DNA of 46,371 bases, from positions 1 to 46,371 of the forward strand of contig JAQWAC010000005.1 of NCBI GenBank assembly GCA_028707875.1. Reading direction: 5' to 3'. The stretch's first letter is position 1; every line of letters begins with the position of its first letter. Position numbers and translations under genes: made by a program. Of the stretch, positions 4,151 to 43,620 are shown piece after piece. Origin of the DNA: Candidatus Peribacteraceae bacterium. Lineage in GTDB: Bacteria > Patescibacteriota > Gracilibacteria > Peribacterales > Peribacteraceae. The notes under the pieces are model-generated. The model was not told where the DNA came from. It worked only from the letters and a program-made list of their open reading frames with translations, and made no database searches.

Positions 4151-4714
4151 TCAATCCAGCCGGATCTCCGTGGGATCGAGGAGATTGACGAATCGGAGCG
4201 AAGACCACGGCCAATCTTCCGGTGAGGTGCATAATCCGTGACGCCAGGCGTTGTAGTGGACGTAGGTGAGAGCGGTGGAGCGTTGTTCTGTATCTTGAAT
4301 GATTCGACTATGAAAACCGTTTTCCCAGTGAATCTTTTCAACATCTATGGCTGGAATCTGAGGGTCCTGAATACCTACAGCTGGGATTCGCGAATTTAAT
4401 ATTTTCCACAGCTGGGGTTCATGAACCCCAGCTGTAGTAGTAGCAAGGGGGACACGATGAATATGCCAAGAGCTATTTCTTTTGAATGAATGCATGAACG
4501 CGCTGAGTCCTCTTTCTCCCGGACTCACCACCATATGCACATGATCCGTCAGAATACAGAACGCATACACTTTCGCCCCGTGAATATTCCGCGTCATGAT
4601 CAGATTGTTGATCAGGATTTCCGGTACGCCGCGCAAAGTACACCACGGGATTTTTCCTTTGGCGTTGGTTGTGATGTGGAATGTGCCCTCTTGCTGAGAA
4701 TGACTTTGGGCCAT
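4151..4714 (-). CDS. RAYT / IS200-like Y1 (HUH) transposase with an in-frame insert
   Basis: A 187-aa single-strand DNA transposase of the REP-associated (RAYT) branch. The HUH metal site is HVH at residues 58-60, preceded by AFCILTD and followed by MVV. The family block with Y-V-H-x-N and PEDWPWSS stands at 151-172. Between FKRNSSW (78-83) and the WENGFHSRII block (130-139) there are about 35 residues more than usual, encoded by DNA rich in palindromes, including a perfect 28-bp one. RAYTs normally act on REP palindromes outside the gene. It starts 2 nt after the comM stop, so it is probably co-transcribed with comM. Activity is uncertain because of the insert. Confidence 0.85.
   Translation of the reverse strand: MAQSHSQQEGTFHITTNAKGKIPWCTLRGVPEILINNLIMTRNIHGAKVYAFCILTDHVHMVVSPGERGLSAFMHSFKRNSSWHIHRVPLATTTAGVHEPQLWKILNSRIPAVGIQDPQIPAIDVEKIHWENGFHSRIIQDTEQRSTALTYVHYNAWRHGLCTSPEDWPWSSLRFVNLLDPTEIRLD
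4408..4435. repeat. Perfect 28-bp palindrome inside the RAYT gene
   Basis: Each strand reads ACAGCTGGGGTTCA followed by its exact reverse complement, with no spacer. A related half-site (ACAGCTGGGATTC, followed by GCGAAT) lies just left at about 4377-4393. A hairpin of this kind is what RAYT enzymes bind, yet here it is translated as part of the enzyme. I saw no second perfect copy in the window. Confidence 0.9.
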
Positions 4715-7183: not shown

Positions 7184-7243
7184 ATCGTTCGTGATTACTC
7201 TTGCCTCATGAGAGTGAATCGCTACACTGCATCCACATCATCG

Positions 7244-7345
7244 TCCTATCCAGAGAGGCGCCGAGGGATCTGGCCCGCTTGAAGCGCCCCCCAACCATCC
7301 GCAAGGAAACGGTGGGAAATCCAGCCCCTACAGGGGAAGATAGCA
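7244..7345 (+). promoter_or_regulatory. SAM-I (S-box) riboswitch aptamer upstream of metK
   Basis: The leader matches the S-box core in order: CTATC closing P1 at 7246-7250, then AGAGAGG, GAGGGATCTGGCCC, GAAGC, CCAACC, then GGTGGGAAATCCAGC, a CCCC/GGGG P4 hairpin, and GATAG at 7339-7343 closing P1. GGCGC and GCGCC pair as P2. This aptamer binds S-adenosylmethionine and usually turns off methionine/SAM genes, and metK is the next gene. Downstream, 7347-7356 and 7408-7417 are exact 10-bp complements around a small CCC/GGG hairpin, a likely expression platform. Confidence 0.9.
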
Positions 7346-7416
7346 GCGCATCTCCGCTCTTCCCCAAAAGGGAAAAGTGGGATTCGACGATGCACAGTTC
7401 TTTCTTCCGGAGATGC

Positions 7417-7496
7417 GAATGGATAATGGAAAATGGATAATGACTACGAAGAAATTTTCAATTATCCATTGTCCATTATCAATTATTAATTTATTT
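7417..7496. repeat. Head-to-head heptamer array (AATGGAN family), copy 1
   Basis: The left arm reads as heptamers AATGGAT, AATGGAA, AATGGAT, AATGACT. After a short ACGAAGA spacer the right arm reads ATTTTCA, ATTATCC, ATTGTCC, ATTATCA, the reverse complement of the same heptamers. About 19 bp can pair with one mismatch. The array lies between the SAM riboswitch and metK, where its hairpin could act as the regulated terminator. Sister copies are at 26317 and 34536. Confidence 0.8.
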
Positions 7497-24403: not shown

Positions 24404-24799
24404 ATGACGAACCCCCTCCCCCTCGCATTCCGTATCGGCGCCGCTGCTGCGGCAGTGGCTGCACAATTTTTTGTCGTGATGCCGGTTCATGCCGCGCACA
24501 TCGACATCTCGGAACTTCAGGAGTGGCAGAGGGACAATGCGTGGCTCCGGCAATCGAATGGCGGGTTCGCCTCCGATTATCCGTACGATGCAGGACTCTT
24601 CTATTACACGTTGCCTTCCCGCAGCAGGAGCTTCGCGCTGCACTCTTACACACGCAACAACTACTACAAGTACTACCACACTCTTCCGCCTCCCCAGGGA
24701 TATAAGCCGCAAATGACGCCGCAGGAAGCGCACGATTGCGGGAACTACAGCTTCATGCGCCCGAACAACGTGCCGCCGTACGGTTATAAGTGTAATTAA
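24404..24799 (+). CDS. Small secreted Tyr-rich protein
   Basis: A 131-aa protein with a clear signal peptide (hydrophobic residues 9-27, cleavage after VHA at about 30). The mature part of about 100 residues is rich in Tyr, Asn, Pro and Ser (YTRNNYYKYYHTLPPP) and has two cysteines near the C-terminus (HDCGN and YKCN) that could form a disulfide. I do not recognise a family. It is probably exported; a surface or extracellular matrix role is possible. It has its own promoter and ends at a structured repeat lying on the other strand. Confidence 0.7.
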   Translation: MTNPLPLAFRIGAAAAAVAAQFFVVMPVHAAHIDISELQEWQRDNAWLRQSNGGFASDYPYDAGLFYYTLPSRSRSFALHSYTRNNYYKYYHTLPPPQGYKPQMTPQEAHDCGNYSFMRPNNVPPYGYKCN

Positions 24800-24898
24800 C
24801 GCGGAAGAGCAACCTGCGGTTTCTCTCCCACGAGCCCTCTTTTCCCTAAGCGGTGTCGCTCCAGCGTTGGGGCCCACGAGACCCAACGCTTCGCGAAG
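24798..24898 (-). repeat. Structured three-hairpin repeat, copy B
   Basis: Read on the minus strand, this is a second copy of the element at 33862. Stem 1 is AGCGTTGGG/CCCAACGCT (9 bp) around the loop TCTCGTGGGC, flanked by TCGC/GCGA. A weaker second hairpin has an AGGG loop. A third hairpin has outer arms at 24800-24809 and 24823-24832 and an inner AACC-GCA-GGTT. Two base pairs of stem 1 differ from copy A on both sides. It lies 3' of galU in the same orientation and could also terminate that transcript. Confidence 0.75.
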
Positions 24899-24947
24899 TT
24901 ATTACAAATATTGCGAGAGATAATTGAGATTTCACGAATCAATCAGC

Positions 24948-25988: not shown

Positions 25989-26312
25989 ATGACTGTCTCG
26001 CAGTCCGCACTCTCGAAGGTTCAGGATCTCTACCTGATGCAGATCGAACTCTGGAAGCATCTTCGCGAAGGAAATTTTCAGAAGGCTGATCAACGCAAGC
26101 AAACCCAGAAGTGTCTGCGGCAATTCTCGCGCCTCCTCGATCAGGTCGACTGGCATTACATGGGAGGCGAGGACGTACTCGCGTCTCTCCAGGCCATGCG
26201 TGGAGAAGTTTCGGCACGACTCAGGAATATCCGCCGCCGCAAATTGACCGCCAAGCGCGTGACGGTGAAGCGTGTCGTGGCGACGAAGAAGACGAAGGCA
26301 AAGAGAAAGTAA
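25989..26312 (+). CDS. Small basic helical protein, unknown
   Basis: A 107-aa soluble protein. Residues 1-80 are helical and mixed-charge (SKVQDLYLMQIELWKHLREG, QCLRQFSRLLDQVDW-like pattern). The last 30 residues are very basic (RRRKLTAKRVTVKRVV then KKTKAKRK), like tails that bind nucleic acid. I do not recognise a family. A good promoter directly upstream supports it. A DNA- or RNA-associated role is a guess from charge alone. Confidence 0.65.
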   Translation: MTVSQSALSKVQDLYLMQIELWKHLREGNFQKADQRKQTQKCLRQFSRLLDQVDWHYMGGEDVLASLQAMRGEVSARLRNIRRRKLTAKRVTVKRVVATKKTKAKRK

Positions 26313-26316
26313 AATG

Positions 26317-26379
26317 AGCAATGGATAATGGACAATGGAAAATGATTCATTGTCCATTTTCAATTATCAATTTTCCATT
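26317..26379. repeat. Head-to-head heptamer array (AATGGAN family), copy 2
   Basis: The left arm reads AATGGAT, AATGGAC, AATGGAA, AATGATT and the right arm CATTGTC, CATTTTC, AATTATC, AATTTTC, which are reverse-complement heptamers. It sits between two convergent genes (the 107-aa gene and the heat-shock gene), where the hairpin could serve as a two-way terminator. Confidence 0.8.
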
Positions 26380-33849: not shown

Positions 33850-33861
33850 TTCTGGTAAATT

Positions 33862-33960
33862 GTCGCGAAGCAATGGGTCTCGTGGGCCCCATTGCTGGAG
33901 CGACTCCTTTCAGGGAAAGGATTGCTCATGAAAGGAAAACCGTAGGTTTGCCTTTCATGC
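33862..33960 (+). repeat. Structured three-hairpin repeat, copy A
   Basis: Stem 1 is AGCAATGGG/CCCATTGCT (33869-33877 with 33888-33896) around the loop TCTCGTGGGC, closed by GTCGC/GCGAC. Stem 2 is TCCTTT/AAAGGA with loop CAGGG. Stem 3 is CATGAAAGG/CCTTTCATG with inner AAACC-GTA-GGTTT. It fills the whole gap between dnaJ and the convergent jag gene and probably forms the dnaJ 3' UTR. Sequence and paired substitutions are shared with copies B and C. Confidence 0.8.
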
Positions 33961-34517
33961 TAAACGTCCAGATTCTCAAATCCCTCGCCCTTCGGGGTCG
34001 CATCCGCCATCACCGGCGAGAGCTCTTCGCCCACTGCGGGGCCCTTCCCCGACTTCATCTTGAGGACGACCTGACGGTAATCCCCTTCGCCGATGCTCTC
34101 GCTCGTGAGGTCCTGCATGGCGGGGGACGAGGCGATGTGGAGGTGCACGATGCGGCGGAAGTACGGGCTCATCGGAGCGAGCGCGACGCGGCTGCCCGTC
34201 CGCCGCACGAAGTCGGCCTTCTGTTCCGCCATGCGGCGCACCTTGTCCTCCTGTTCGCGGCGGTAGCCGTCCACGTCCACGACAAGGAACGGACTCTTTT
34301 CCAATTTCTCCTTCGCGCGGAGGATGGACTTCAACAGATGCTGGAGTGAGTTCAGGGTCTCGCCGTGCCATCCGATGATGCGGCTCGCATTGGAGGACGT
34401 GATATCCACGCGTGTGAATCCCTCCGTCGGATCTTCGTGCACGGCAATCGAGTCGAACGGAAGATTGAGCTGGGTGAGCAGCGCGCCGAGGATTTCCTTG
34501 ATCACGGTGTCCTTCAT
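33960..34517 (-). CDS. khpB: Jag/KhpB-type RNA-binding protein (KH + R3H)
   Basis: A 185-aa protein. An N-terminal piece (1-45) is followed by a KH-like domain with ASRIIGWHGETLNSLQHLL (GxxG-type loop IGWHGE) and an R3H domain (about 100-165) including RMAEQKADFVRRTG, LAPMSPYFRRIVH and SESIGEGDYRQVVL. Jag/KhpB proteins bind RNA and influence cell elongation and envelope genes. The usual jag N-terminal domain is short here. The ATG at 34517 is chosen; the upstream frame runs through a heptamer repeat and is not coding. The neighbours yidC and rnpA, often found with jag, are absent. Confidence 0.92.
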   Translation of the reverse strand: MKDTVIKEILGALLTQLNLPFDSIAVHEDPTEGFTRVDITSSNASRIIGWHGETLNSLQHLLKSILRAKEKLEKSPFLVVDVDGYRREQEDKVRRMAEQKADFVRRTGSRVALAPMSPYFRRIVHLHIASSPAMQDLTSESIGEGDYRQVVLKMKSGKGPAVGEELSPVMADATPKGEGFENLDV

Positions 34518-34535
34518 GGTGGAGCGAGGATAGCG

Positions 34536-34613
34536 CGAATAATGAAAAATGGAAAATGGGTAATGGATAATGAAACCGAAGAATTTTCCATTGTCCATTA
34601 TCAATTATCCACT
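34536..34613. repeat. Head-to-head heptamer array (AATGGAN family), copy 3
   Basis: The left arm reads AATGAAA, AATGGAA, AATGGGT, AATGGAT, AATGAAA; the spacer is CCGAAGA (compare ACGAAGA in copy 1); the right arm reads ATTTTCC, ATTGTCC, ATTATCA, ATTATCC. It lies in the leader or promoter region of jag, downstream of the HU terminator. Confidence 0.8.
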
Positions 34614-37852: not shown

Positions 37853-38090
37853 AGGCGCTTAGCTTCCGTCTTCGCTGCGCTGCGCCGAGACAGGCAGTTG
37901 CCACGCCGAGCGCAGCGAGGCGCAATAAAGAAGATGCGCTCGATCCCCGATCATTCTTTCCACCATCGTCCGGTCATAGGCGCTTAGCTCAGTTGCCACG
38001 CCGAGCGCAGCGAGGCGCAATAAAGAAGATGCGCTCGATCCCCGATCATTCTTTCCACCATCGTCCGGTCATAGGCGCTTAGCTCAGTTG
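37853..38090 (+). repeat. 95-bp tandem duplication carrying the tRNA-Trp 5' end
   Basis: A 95-bp unit is repeated exactly at 37895-37989 and 37990-38084. Each unit ends in the first 12 nt of the tRNA gene, and the next begins with the following CAGTTG. A more distant partial copy of the tRNA start (AGGCGCTTAGCT) is at 37853-37864, separated from CAGTTG by a 30-bp insert that pairs with GAGCGCAGCGA in the unit. The result is two tRNA 5' fragments upstream of the intact gene. Confidence 0.9.
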
Positions 38091-38148
38091 GTAGAGCGTC
38101 GGTCTCCAAAACCGAAGGTCGTAGGTTCGATCCCTACAGCGCCTGCCA
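38073..38148 (+). tRNA. trnW: tRNA-Trp (anticodon CCA)
   Basis: A full cloverleaf is present: acceptor AGGCGCT/AGCGCCT, D arm GCTC/GAGC with AGTTGGTA loop, anticodon stem TCGGT/ACCGA with loop CTCCAAA (anticodon CCA), and T arm GTAGG/CCTAC with loop TTCGATC. The discriminator is G and the 3' CCA is encoded (38146-38148). The upstream DNA is a duplicated copy of its own 5' flank and first 18 nt. Confidence 0.95.
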
Positions 38149-43350: not shown

Positions 43351-43464
43351 GTCGCGAAGCAATTCAAATAAATTTGTGCCGAAGGCAAGCTTTGCTTGCC
43401 TGGAGGCACTCCTCTTAGGGAAGGGTGGGTTCATGGGAGGGACACCGCAGGTGGCCCTTCCATG
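43351..43464 (+). repeat. Structured repeat, copy C (diverged stem 1)
   Basis: It shares GTCGCGAAGC at the left, the CTTAGGGAA loop of hairpin 2, and hairpin 3 (CATGGGAGGG/CCCTTCCATG with inner CACC-GCA-GGTG). Stem 1 is replaced by a different hairpin (AGGCAAGC/GCTTGCCT). Compared with copies A and B, the outer and inner stems of hairpin 3 change on both sides. It lies upstream of dgt on the opposite strand. Confidence 0.7.
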
Positions 43465-43620
43465 CATATGCCAAACGGCCGTTGAGCAGGGACGCTATGC
43501 TCCTGGGTAACCAGGTGGGTGACCGCATCCCCGGACCTCGATCCGGAGAGAGTAGGTCTCCCCTAAAGCACTTGAGGAGAAACGTACCAGCTCTGACGTG
43601 CCGTCCAGACGGAGTCAGCG
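43465..43620 (+). ncRNA. Highly structured sequence next to repeat copy C, possible RNA
   Basis: Several strong hairpins follow each other: GAGCA/TGCTC, CCTGG-GTAA-CCAGG (a GNRA tetraloop), CCGGA/TCCGG, and CTGAC-gtg-CCGT-CCAG-ACGG-a-GTCAG, whose right arm overlaps the pgeF stop codon. There is no reading frame of note. Consensus words of RNase P, tmRNA, SRP RNA and 6S RNA are not seen. Whether it is an RNA gene or an extension of the repeat is open. Confidence 0.35.

Follow-up and report, generated by a model that had tools for sequence, protein, structure and literature searches.

The approximately 105-nt hairpin element located beside a khpB-like gene in a Candidatus Peribacteraceae genome belongs to a dispersed family of sequences that has been gained and lost at orthologous sites, conserves its structure, is asymmetric between its two strands, and abuts functional boundaries with its 3′ end. 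We assign a probability of about 0.5 to the reading that these sequences form an old Patescibacteria family of mobile palindromic elements, non-autonomous and expanded in Ca. Peribacteraceae. An initial annotation had proposed a structured RNA or mobile hairpin family, which was right in outline: intergenic copies are many, stems covary, and Rfam contains no match. A streamlined genome carries here one uncharacterized structured family whose copies mark where genes end with nearly single-base precision. Its hundreds of natural copies are a rare set for testing hairpin covariation as the result of selection, mobility, or replication error, and the family matters for annotating noncoding RNAs, terminators, rRNA introns, and gene ends in Peribacteraceae genomes.

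Three copies were located in the window (the whole 46,371-nucleotide stretch analyzed here) with R1, a covariance model trained on 20 full-length copies. Copy A occupies positions 33854-33965 on the plus strand, including an AT-rich 5′ leader (88.6 bits; E = 3.6e-18, E values from this model being rough). Copy B lies at 24794-24905 on the minus strand (82.0 bits), and copy C at 43368-43470 on the plus strand (107.2 bits). These are about the places first reported, and the motifs described as common to the three copies were confirmed. The start of copy C, however, had been set at 43351 and is corrected to near 43368; TCGCGAAGC at 43351, taken as that start, is not the element's own stem. All three copies folded better than shuffled sequences (z = −5.3, −3.3, and −3.1). 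Sequence, fold, and covariation together defined the parts of copy A. P1 pairs GTCGC (33862-33866) with GCGAC (33900-33904) and encloses hairpin 1, formed by AGCAATGGG (33869-33877) and CCCATTGCT (33888-33896), the whole unit (33862-33904, plus strand) containing a conserved GA/GGA internal loop. A linker carrying the conserved AGGGAAA follows (33905-33926, plus strand), and then hairpin 3, CATGAAAGGAAAACC-GTA-GGTTTGCCTTTCATG (33927-33959, plus strand). In copy C, P1 is GTGCC/GGCAC and hairpin 1 is of another class, GGCAAGC-TTT-GCTTGCC.

Each of the three copies meets a boundary at its 3′ end. The last base of copy A, 33959, adjoins the stop codon (33960-33962) of its antisense neighbor, the khpB-like gene at 33960-34598 on the minus strand, recognized by R3H and KH domains (Pfam) and by its orthologues. 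The 3′ end of copy B is 3 nt from the stop of an unnamed plus-strand gene (24404-24799), and that of copy C adjoins the 3′ end of a minus-strand sequence at 43464-43614 that is probably 6S RNA (Rfam match of 32.3 bits, E = 8.1e-5, under the gathering score of 46.4). The same 6S sequence was also seen beside an element in two other genomes, G027 (L171) and G082 (L183). Copies A and B do follow dnaJ and galU immediately on their 3′ side, in sense orientation, as first noticed, but this does not hold generally. Genes converge at both sites, and it is the side opposite dnaJ and galU that carries the sharp boundary. Hairpins 3′ of both genes could be read as an intrinsic terminator or 3′-UTR element of dnaJ and galU. 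We consider that role highly improbable, given that the plus strand has no T-run after the element (downstream lie antisense stops, A-runs of opposite terminators, or tRNA ends) and that a sense gene immediately upstream is missing from most copies (68 of the 127 with both neighbors called).

Across the family, the element begins with an A/T-rich 5′ leader of ∼12 nt (column profile), followed by a 5-bp P1, the GA/GGA internal loop, hairpin 1, a linker of the form CC-N(4-7)-AGGGAAA, and hairpin 3, whose tip is ACC-GTA-GGT or ACC-GCA-GGT and which is followed by an A/T-rich end. The element ends read AAATAAT... and ...CATGNN. The column profile contained no -35-like conservation upstream of the element that would indicate a promoter of its own. 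Hairpin 1 comes in exchangeable classes, namely the triloop GC-NNN-GC (95), GGGTCTCGYGGG (60), GGGTGGCT..GGGACCC (28), and others (36), and some copies carry additional hairpins nested within hairpin 1, the linker, or hairpin 3. For example, five copies from the window's own genome (L016, L012, L031, L033, and L034) carry a nested insert of ∼60 nt in hairpin 1, CCTGCACGCCGAAGTGCCG...TCGGCGTTCCGGCACGCAGG, the arms of which could form a pseudoknot. Only two hairpins are conserved. The middle hairpin that had been drawn with an AGGG loop was rejected: 12 of 183 copies have 4 bp or more of it, where shuffling the arms gives an expectation of 9.2. AGGGAAA is a conserved linker.

The compensatory changes first seen in hairpins 1 and 3 proved massive in a larger alignment, which supports a maintained hairpin structure. 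In alignment A4 (134 copies), 26 of 28 base pairs changed on both sides, with 787 double-change cells versus 236 ± 26 in shuffles; 94.8% of cells were paired, and the covariation score was 0.52 compared to 0.16 in shuffles. Sliding the partners destroyed the signal. A4 was fitted to the model and thus leans to structure, and related copies are not independent of one another; a MAFFT alignment that was not model-fitted (A3) agreed with the A4 covariation. Copies diverge by ∼34% in stem columns with only 2.8% of pairs broken. This favors an alternative in which the element is a host-adapted structured RNA or DNA hairpin that functions at the ends of transcription units, for example, in transcript 3′-end protection, intercistronic processing, or as a translation signal, and is kept in place by selection. 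We regard this alternative as possible though unlikely, and the evidence on it is taken up below with the placement and age of the copies.

The strand on which the hairpins form could be read from the pairs themselves. On the plus strand of the element, G·T pairs outnumbered A·C mismatches by 91 to 43, although a single column pair supplied 34 of the 91 G·T cells and a different one 15 of the 43 A·C cells, and both the GA/GGA internal loop and the frequent A·G mismatch of hairpin 3 are purine-rich on the plus strand only. The plus strand is therefore the folding strand, an observation that does not tell RNA from DNA. G·T pairs made up 2.7% of paired cells (1.7% without the column that supplied those 34) versus 4.6% in tRNA acceptor stems from the same loci. 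This low share mildly favors DNA or maintenance by template switching, a process proposed to maintain hairpins (PMC8794818). On the latter explanation, the element would consist of old inverted-repeat arms that replication template switching keeps complementary, in otherwise dead DNA free of selection. The nearly exclusive Watson-Crick pairing and the common C-G/G-C flips without G-U intermediates in P1 are in its favor. However, correction of this kind would erase the asymmetric GA/GGA loop, which is conserved (3% divergence); the linker, which has no partner, is also conserved; and dispersal and 3′ abutment are left unexplained. We consider template switching alone a rather doubtful account. 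Copies tend mildly to be oriented against the local GC skew (118 of 185; P = 2e-4), a bias that persisted after gene-strand normalization (89 of 145; P = 0.008) and was seen in 24 of 32 copies of the complete genome G027 (replichore signs as read here). This bias is weak and consistent with single-strand insertion at replication forks.

Copies are far more numerous than the three noted at the outset. BLAST with copy A returned 42 matches in the window's own genome, and R1 detected 77 copies at E < 1e-4 in these 1.32 Mb (a count of the listed forward matches). Densities in Peribacteraceae reach about 6 copies per 100 kb. R1 found the element in 51 of 74 genomes and 31 of 40 genera of the family at E ≤ 1e-4, with 0 to at least 54 copies per genome (stricter filters make that last count an undercount). 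The absence of a copy at this threshold from 23 of the 74 genomes argues against a host-adapted RNA. An exact-pattern scan of 84,980 species genomes returned 69 stretches, nearly all labeled Peribacteria, Peribacteraceae, or Peregrinibacteria, with one short contig labeled WOR-1. We first inferred a family-restricted distribution and dropped it after finding matches in other Patescibacteria families: R1 detected 2 copies each in genomes G186, G173, and G188, and a second model built with those relatives, R2, detected 4 to 6 in each and weaker matches in families f36 and f61. Diverged relatives are few but convincing in at least four other Patescibacteria families. Their architecture is the same (a hairpin, an AGGGAAA-type linker, and an AACCG..AGGTT hairpin), their stem sequences are wholly different, and the GA/GGA loop is missing from the copies of family f74. 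The element pattern was absent from viral contigs. Rfam searches at the gathering score and at E ≤ 10 gave no match to the element, so that the initial statement that no named family has this layout holds as regards Rfam. Of the other refuting conditions named at the outset, neither a lack of additional copies nor a lack of covariation occurred, and IS ends were addressed indirectly, through the missing correlation between copy number and Y1 transposases.

The 3′ ends of the elements were regular in placement. Among 219 copies with distinct flanks (fetched by similarity, with orthologues kept in, and with genes called by our own hexamer ORF finder, whose calls are unreviewed), 151 had the 3′ end at a functional boundary, mostly on the opposite strand. 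These boundaries were antisense stop codons (91), T-runs of antisense terminators (24), antisense tRNA or tmRNA 3′ ends (21), sense tRNA 5′ ends (11), and sense start codons (4). The 68 copies in other contexts include those at 6S RNA 3′ ends (copy C and two more by sequence identity), 5S ends, 23S rRNA exons beside group I introns, and the first codons of metG, a mevalonate-kinase-like gene, and an "SPYWKEPHRW" gene (named from translated starts). Antisense stops were observed 85 times, compared to 27.5 expected by uniform placement in the same gaps, and the 5′ side of the element followed no such rule (14). Outside the family, two copies in f60 adjoin the stops of an antisense ftsZ-like gene and of one other gene, and copies in f74 lie between genes, ending just before the Shine-Dalgarno sequence or start of infA, rplF, and others, or at a terminator. 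The common rule is that the 3′ side is flush with the next functional boundary, rather than at one sequence target. Elements were also seen inside or beside 23S rRNA group I introns in several genomes (L091, L135, L108, L172, L068, and L130), and one beside a 16S rRNA-like stretch at L277.

Much of this placement sits poorly with a structured RNA. Position relative to transcription varies (convergent, 41; co-antisense, 46; divergent, 22; co-sense, 18, among the 127 copies with both neighbors called), the folding strand is antisense to the adjoining gene, and the many copies that lie beyond the T-run of the opposite gene's existing terminator would fall outside that transcript. One setting points the other way. 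In another family, two genera have relatives of the element in the map-infA interval (L234:2464-2565 and L235:6875-6974), conserved between the genera with stems that have changed and yet remain paired. These infA-leader copies look functional, which counts against the mobile reading, and are candidate intercistronic RNAs. More speculatively, the elements could form a Patescibacteria-wide, structure-defined class placed by transcription-unit ends, with a mover outside the tested Y1 transposases and reverse transcriptases; in one family they might have been recruited as intercistronic RNAs of ribosomal-protein operons. We hold this broader view only tentatively.

Comparison of orthologous sites provided evidence of movement. 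Downstream of khpB, G000 and G082 carry the element, whereas the site is empty in G027, with an unrelated 35-bp spacer in its place. Since KhpB ends in the same FENLDV* in all three genomes, with or without the element, the element follows the natural stop and replaces an unrelated spacer. Directional comparisons among these three genomes yielded 31 empty and 15 filled orthologous sites. In-frame elements were present in tpiA (L055, versus L186 without) and in a dGTPase gene (L183, versus the window without), with the reading frame open throughout; such copies within genes also speak against a structured RNA. Beginning at the 3′ end of the element, direct duplications 38 to 139 bp long flank a minority of copies (nine scored at least 47, where the 99% point of the null was 31). 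Together, the empty orthologous site, the tpiA and dGTPase insertions, and the long flanking duplications show that the element has moved. Against the mobile reading, terminal inverted repeats and short target duplications were looked for in the copies, and none were found.

The junctions also bear on a proposal in which a reverse transcriptase copies the element RNA and then jumps onto a host RNA at its 3′ end, the cDNA integrating at the host locus and duplicating the flanks. Such a route would account for 3′ junctions at stop codons, tRNA CCA ends, terminator T-runs, and 5S and 6S 3′ ends, and for long duplications that begin at the 3′ junction. It would not account for the 11 copies at tRNA 5′ ends or for others at 23S 3′ exons or Shine-Dalgarno sites, and duplications are confined to a minority of copies. 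Across 74 family genomes, the RVT_1 count was uncorrelated with element copy number (Spearman −0.07), and this very improbable hypothesis was set aside. A RAYT as the current driver was likewise rejected, as copy number does not track Y1_Tnp (Spearman −0.15 in the same 74 genomes). Five genomes with at least 8 copies, including the complete G027 with its 32, have neither Y1_Tnp nor RVT_1. The window itself contains its genome's only Y1_Tnp gene (4151-4714, minus strand), which is RAYT-like with an HVHMVV motif and has apparent in-frame repeats mid-gene (...GVHEPQLW...IPAVGIQDPQIPAI...).

Whatever movement occurred appears to be old. No pair of copies within a genome was at least 95% identical (134 copies from the window's own genome, G027, and G082), which indicates that the copies are old; identity to the nearest paralogue had medians of 0.82, 0.81, and 0.83, respectively, and was at most 92%. 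Recent movement therefore lacks support from paralogue identities, and the structure has outlived insertion. Orthologous filled pairs were 0.76 identical compared to 0.67 for random pairs, and 26 of 27 kept the same orientation; in some pairs (L136/L071 and L172/L135), one hairpin 1 has been exchanged entirely for another. The lack of recent copies and the kept orientation favor the functional-RNA alternative, and since structure outlives insertion, that alternative keeps its standing as possible but unlikely. Near-identical flanking duplications were discarded as proof of recency, the same target being duplicated lineage-specifically in several species. For example, the element at L090 has a 51/51 identical flanking duplication, yet its nearest paralogue is only 82% identical; gene conversion between direct repeats would explain such duplications around old copies.

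For the mobile reading, we propose that a recombinase or transposase probably recognizes the folded plus strand, most likely as single-stranded DNA. The 3′ end would then come to lie flush with the nearest functional boundary, either on insertion or by a later deletion. Such a route would involve a single-stranded DNA intermediate and a protein acting in trans, with the stems afterwards kept in place by selection, by template-switch correction, or by both.

By the features tested, and with reference to the open-access literature, this is a new family of dispersed palindromic elements that belongs to neither REP, MITE, nor any Rfam family, and probably to neither RPE nor attC; it is best read as REP-like or RPE-like in behavior without being a member of REP or, probably, of RPE. 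Group IIC introns have target sites just after terminators or stop codons, and they and integron attC sites resemble the present family as folded elements in that position. However, the elements have no intron core (no Rfam match), and unlike attC, which is marked by R/L boxes (GTTRRRY) and cassette arrays with an integrase, they form no cassette arrays: they are singletons beside core genes, with no conserved flanking box in the column profile. We know of no mover for the Rickettsia palindromic elements (RPEs). REP/BIME sequences with RAYTs are likewise high-copy, extragenic palindromes often near stop codons, 446 of 4,072 E. coli REPs lying within 15 nt of one (PMC12306157), and their Y1 transposase recognizes a single strand (PMC3733652). 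REPs are, however, 20 to 40 bp with a GTAG or CGTC tag, whereas the element here is ∼105 nt with two hairpins and no tag (no conserved tetranucleotide was found at either element foot in 46 copies), adjoins a gene antisense to its folding strand, and does not track Y1 transposases in copy number. RPEs are palindromic repeats of 100 to 150 bp, some in frame in protein genes (PMC10969869); here, in-frame copies were seen in tpiA and dGTPase and are a minority. In contrast to RPEs, most copies here lie at gene ends rather than within genes, and covariation is much stronger; this separation is by described features, and the exact-pattern scan found Peribacteria and one WOR-1 contig only. The pneumococcal BOX, RUP, and SPRITE elements are modular, dispersed, ∼100 bp long, and insert into one another (PMC10969869), and hairpin modules are swapped or nested here too, but the present elements lack RUP-type terminal inverted repeats and short target duplications, and the lineage is Patescibacteria. 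MITE features of DDE transposons were also absent, with no terminal inverted repeats or short constant target duplication, the duplications being 38 to 139 bp and in a minority.

Several further features were observed in these loci. At L010:4990-5200, L111:6300-6550, L027:2700-2950, and L096:3150-3400, an element lies between duplicated first 15 to 25 codons and the intact gene, the genes being mevalonate-kinase-like or metG. The differences within the duplicate pairs of L010 and L027 are mostly or exclusively synonymous, and a short ORF appears to continue through the element in a single frame until close to the true start codon. In the window, a perfect 95-bp tandem duplication (37895-38084) runs into the start of a tRNA gene (38073-38145), and a SAM riboswitch lies at 7243-7346 (50.1 bits). 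A second dispersed repeat, at 7418-7496, 26306-26377, and 34534-34611, consists of short AATGGATAATGGAAAATGG / TTATCCATTGTCCA units with inverted halves.
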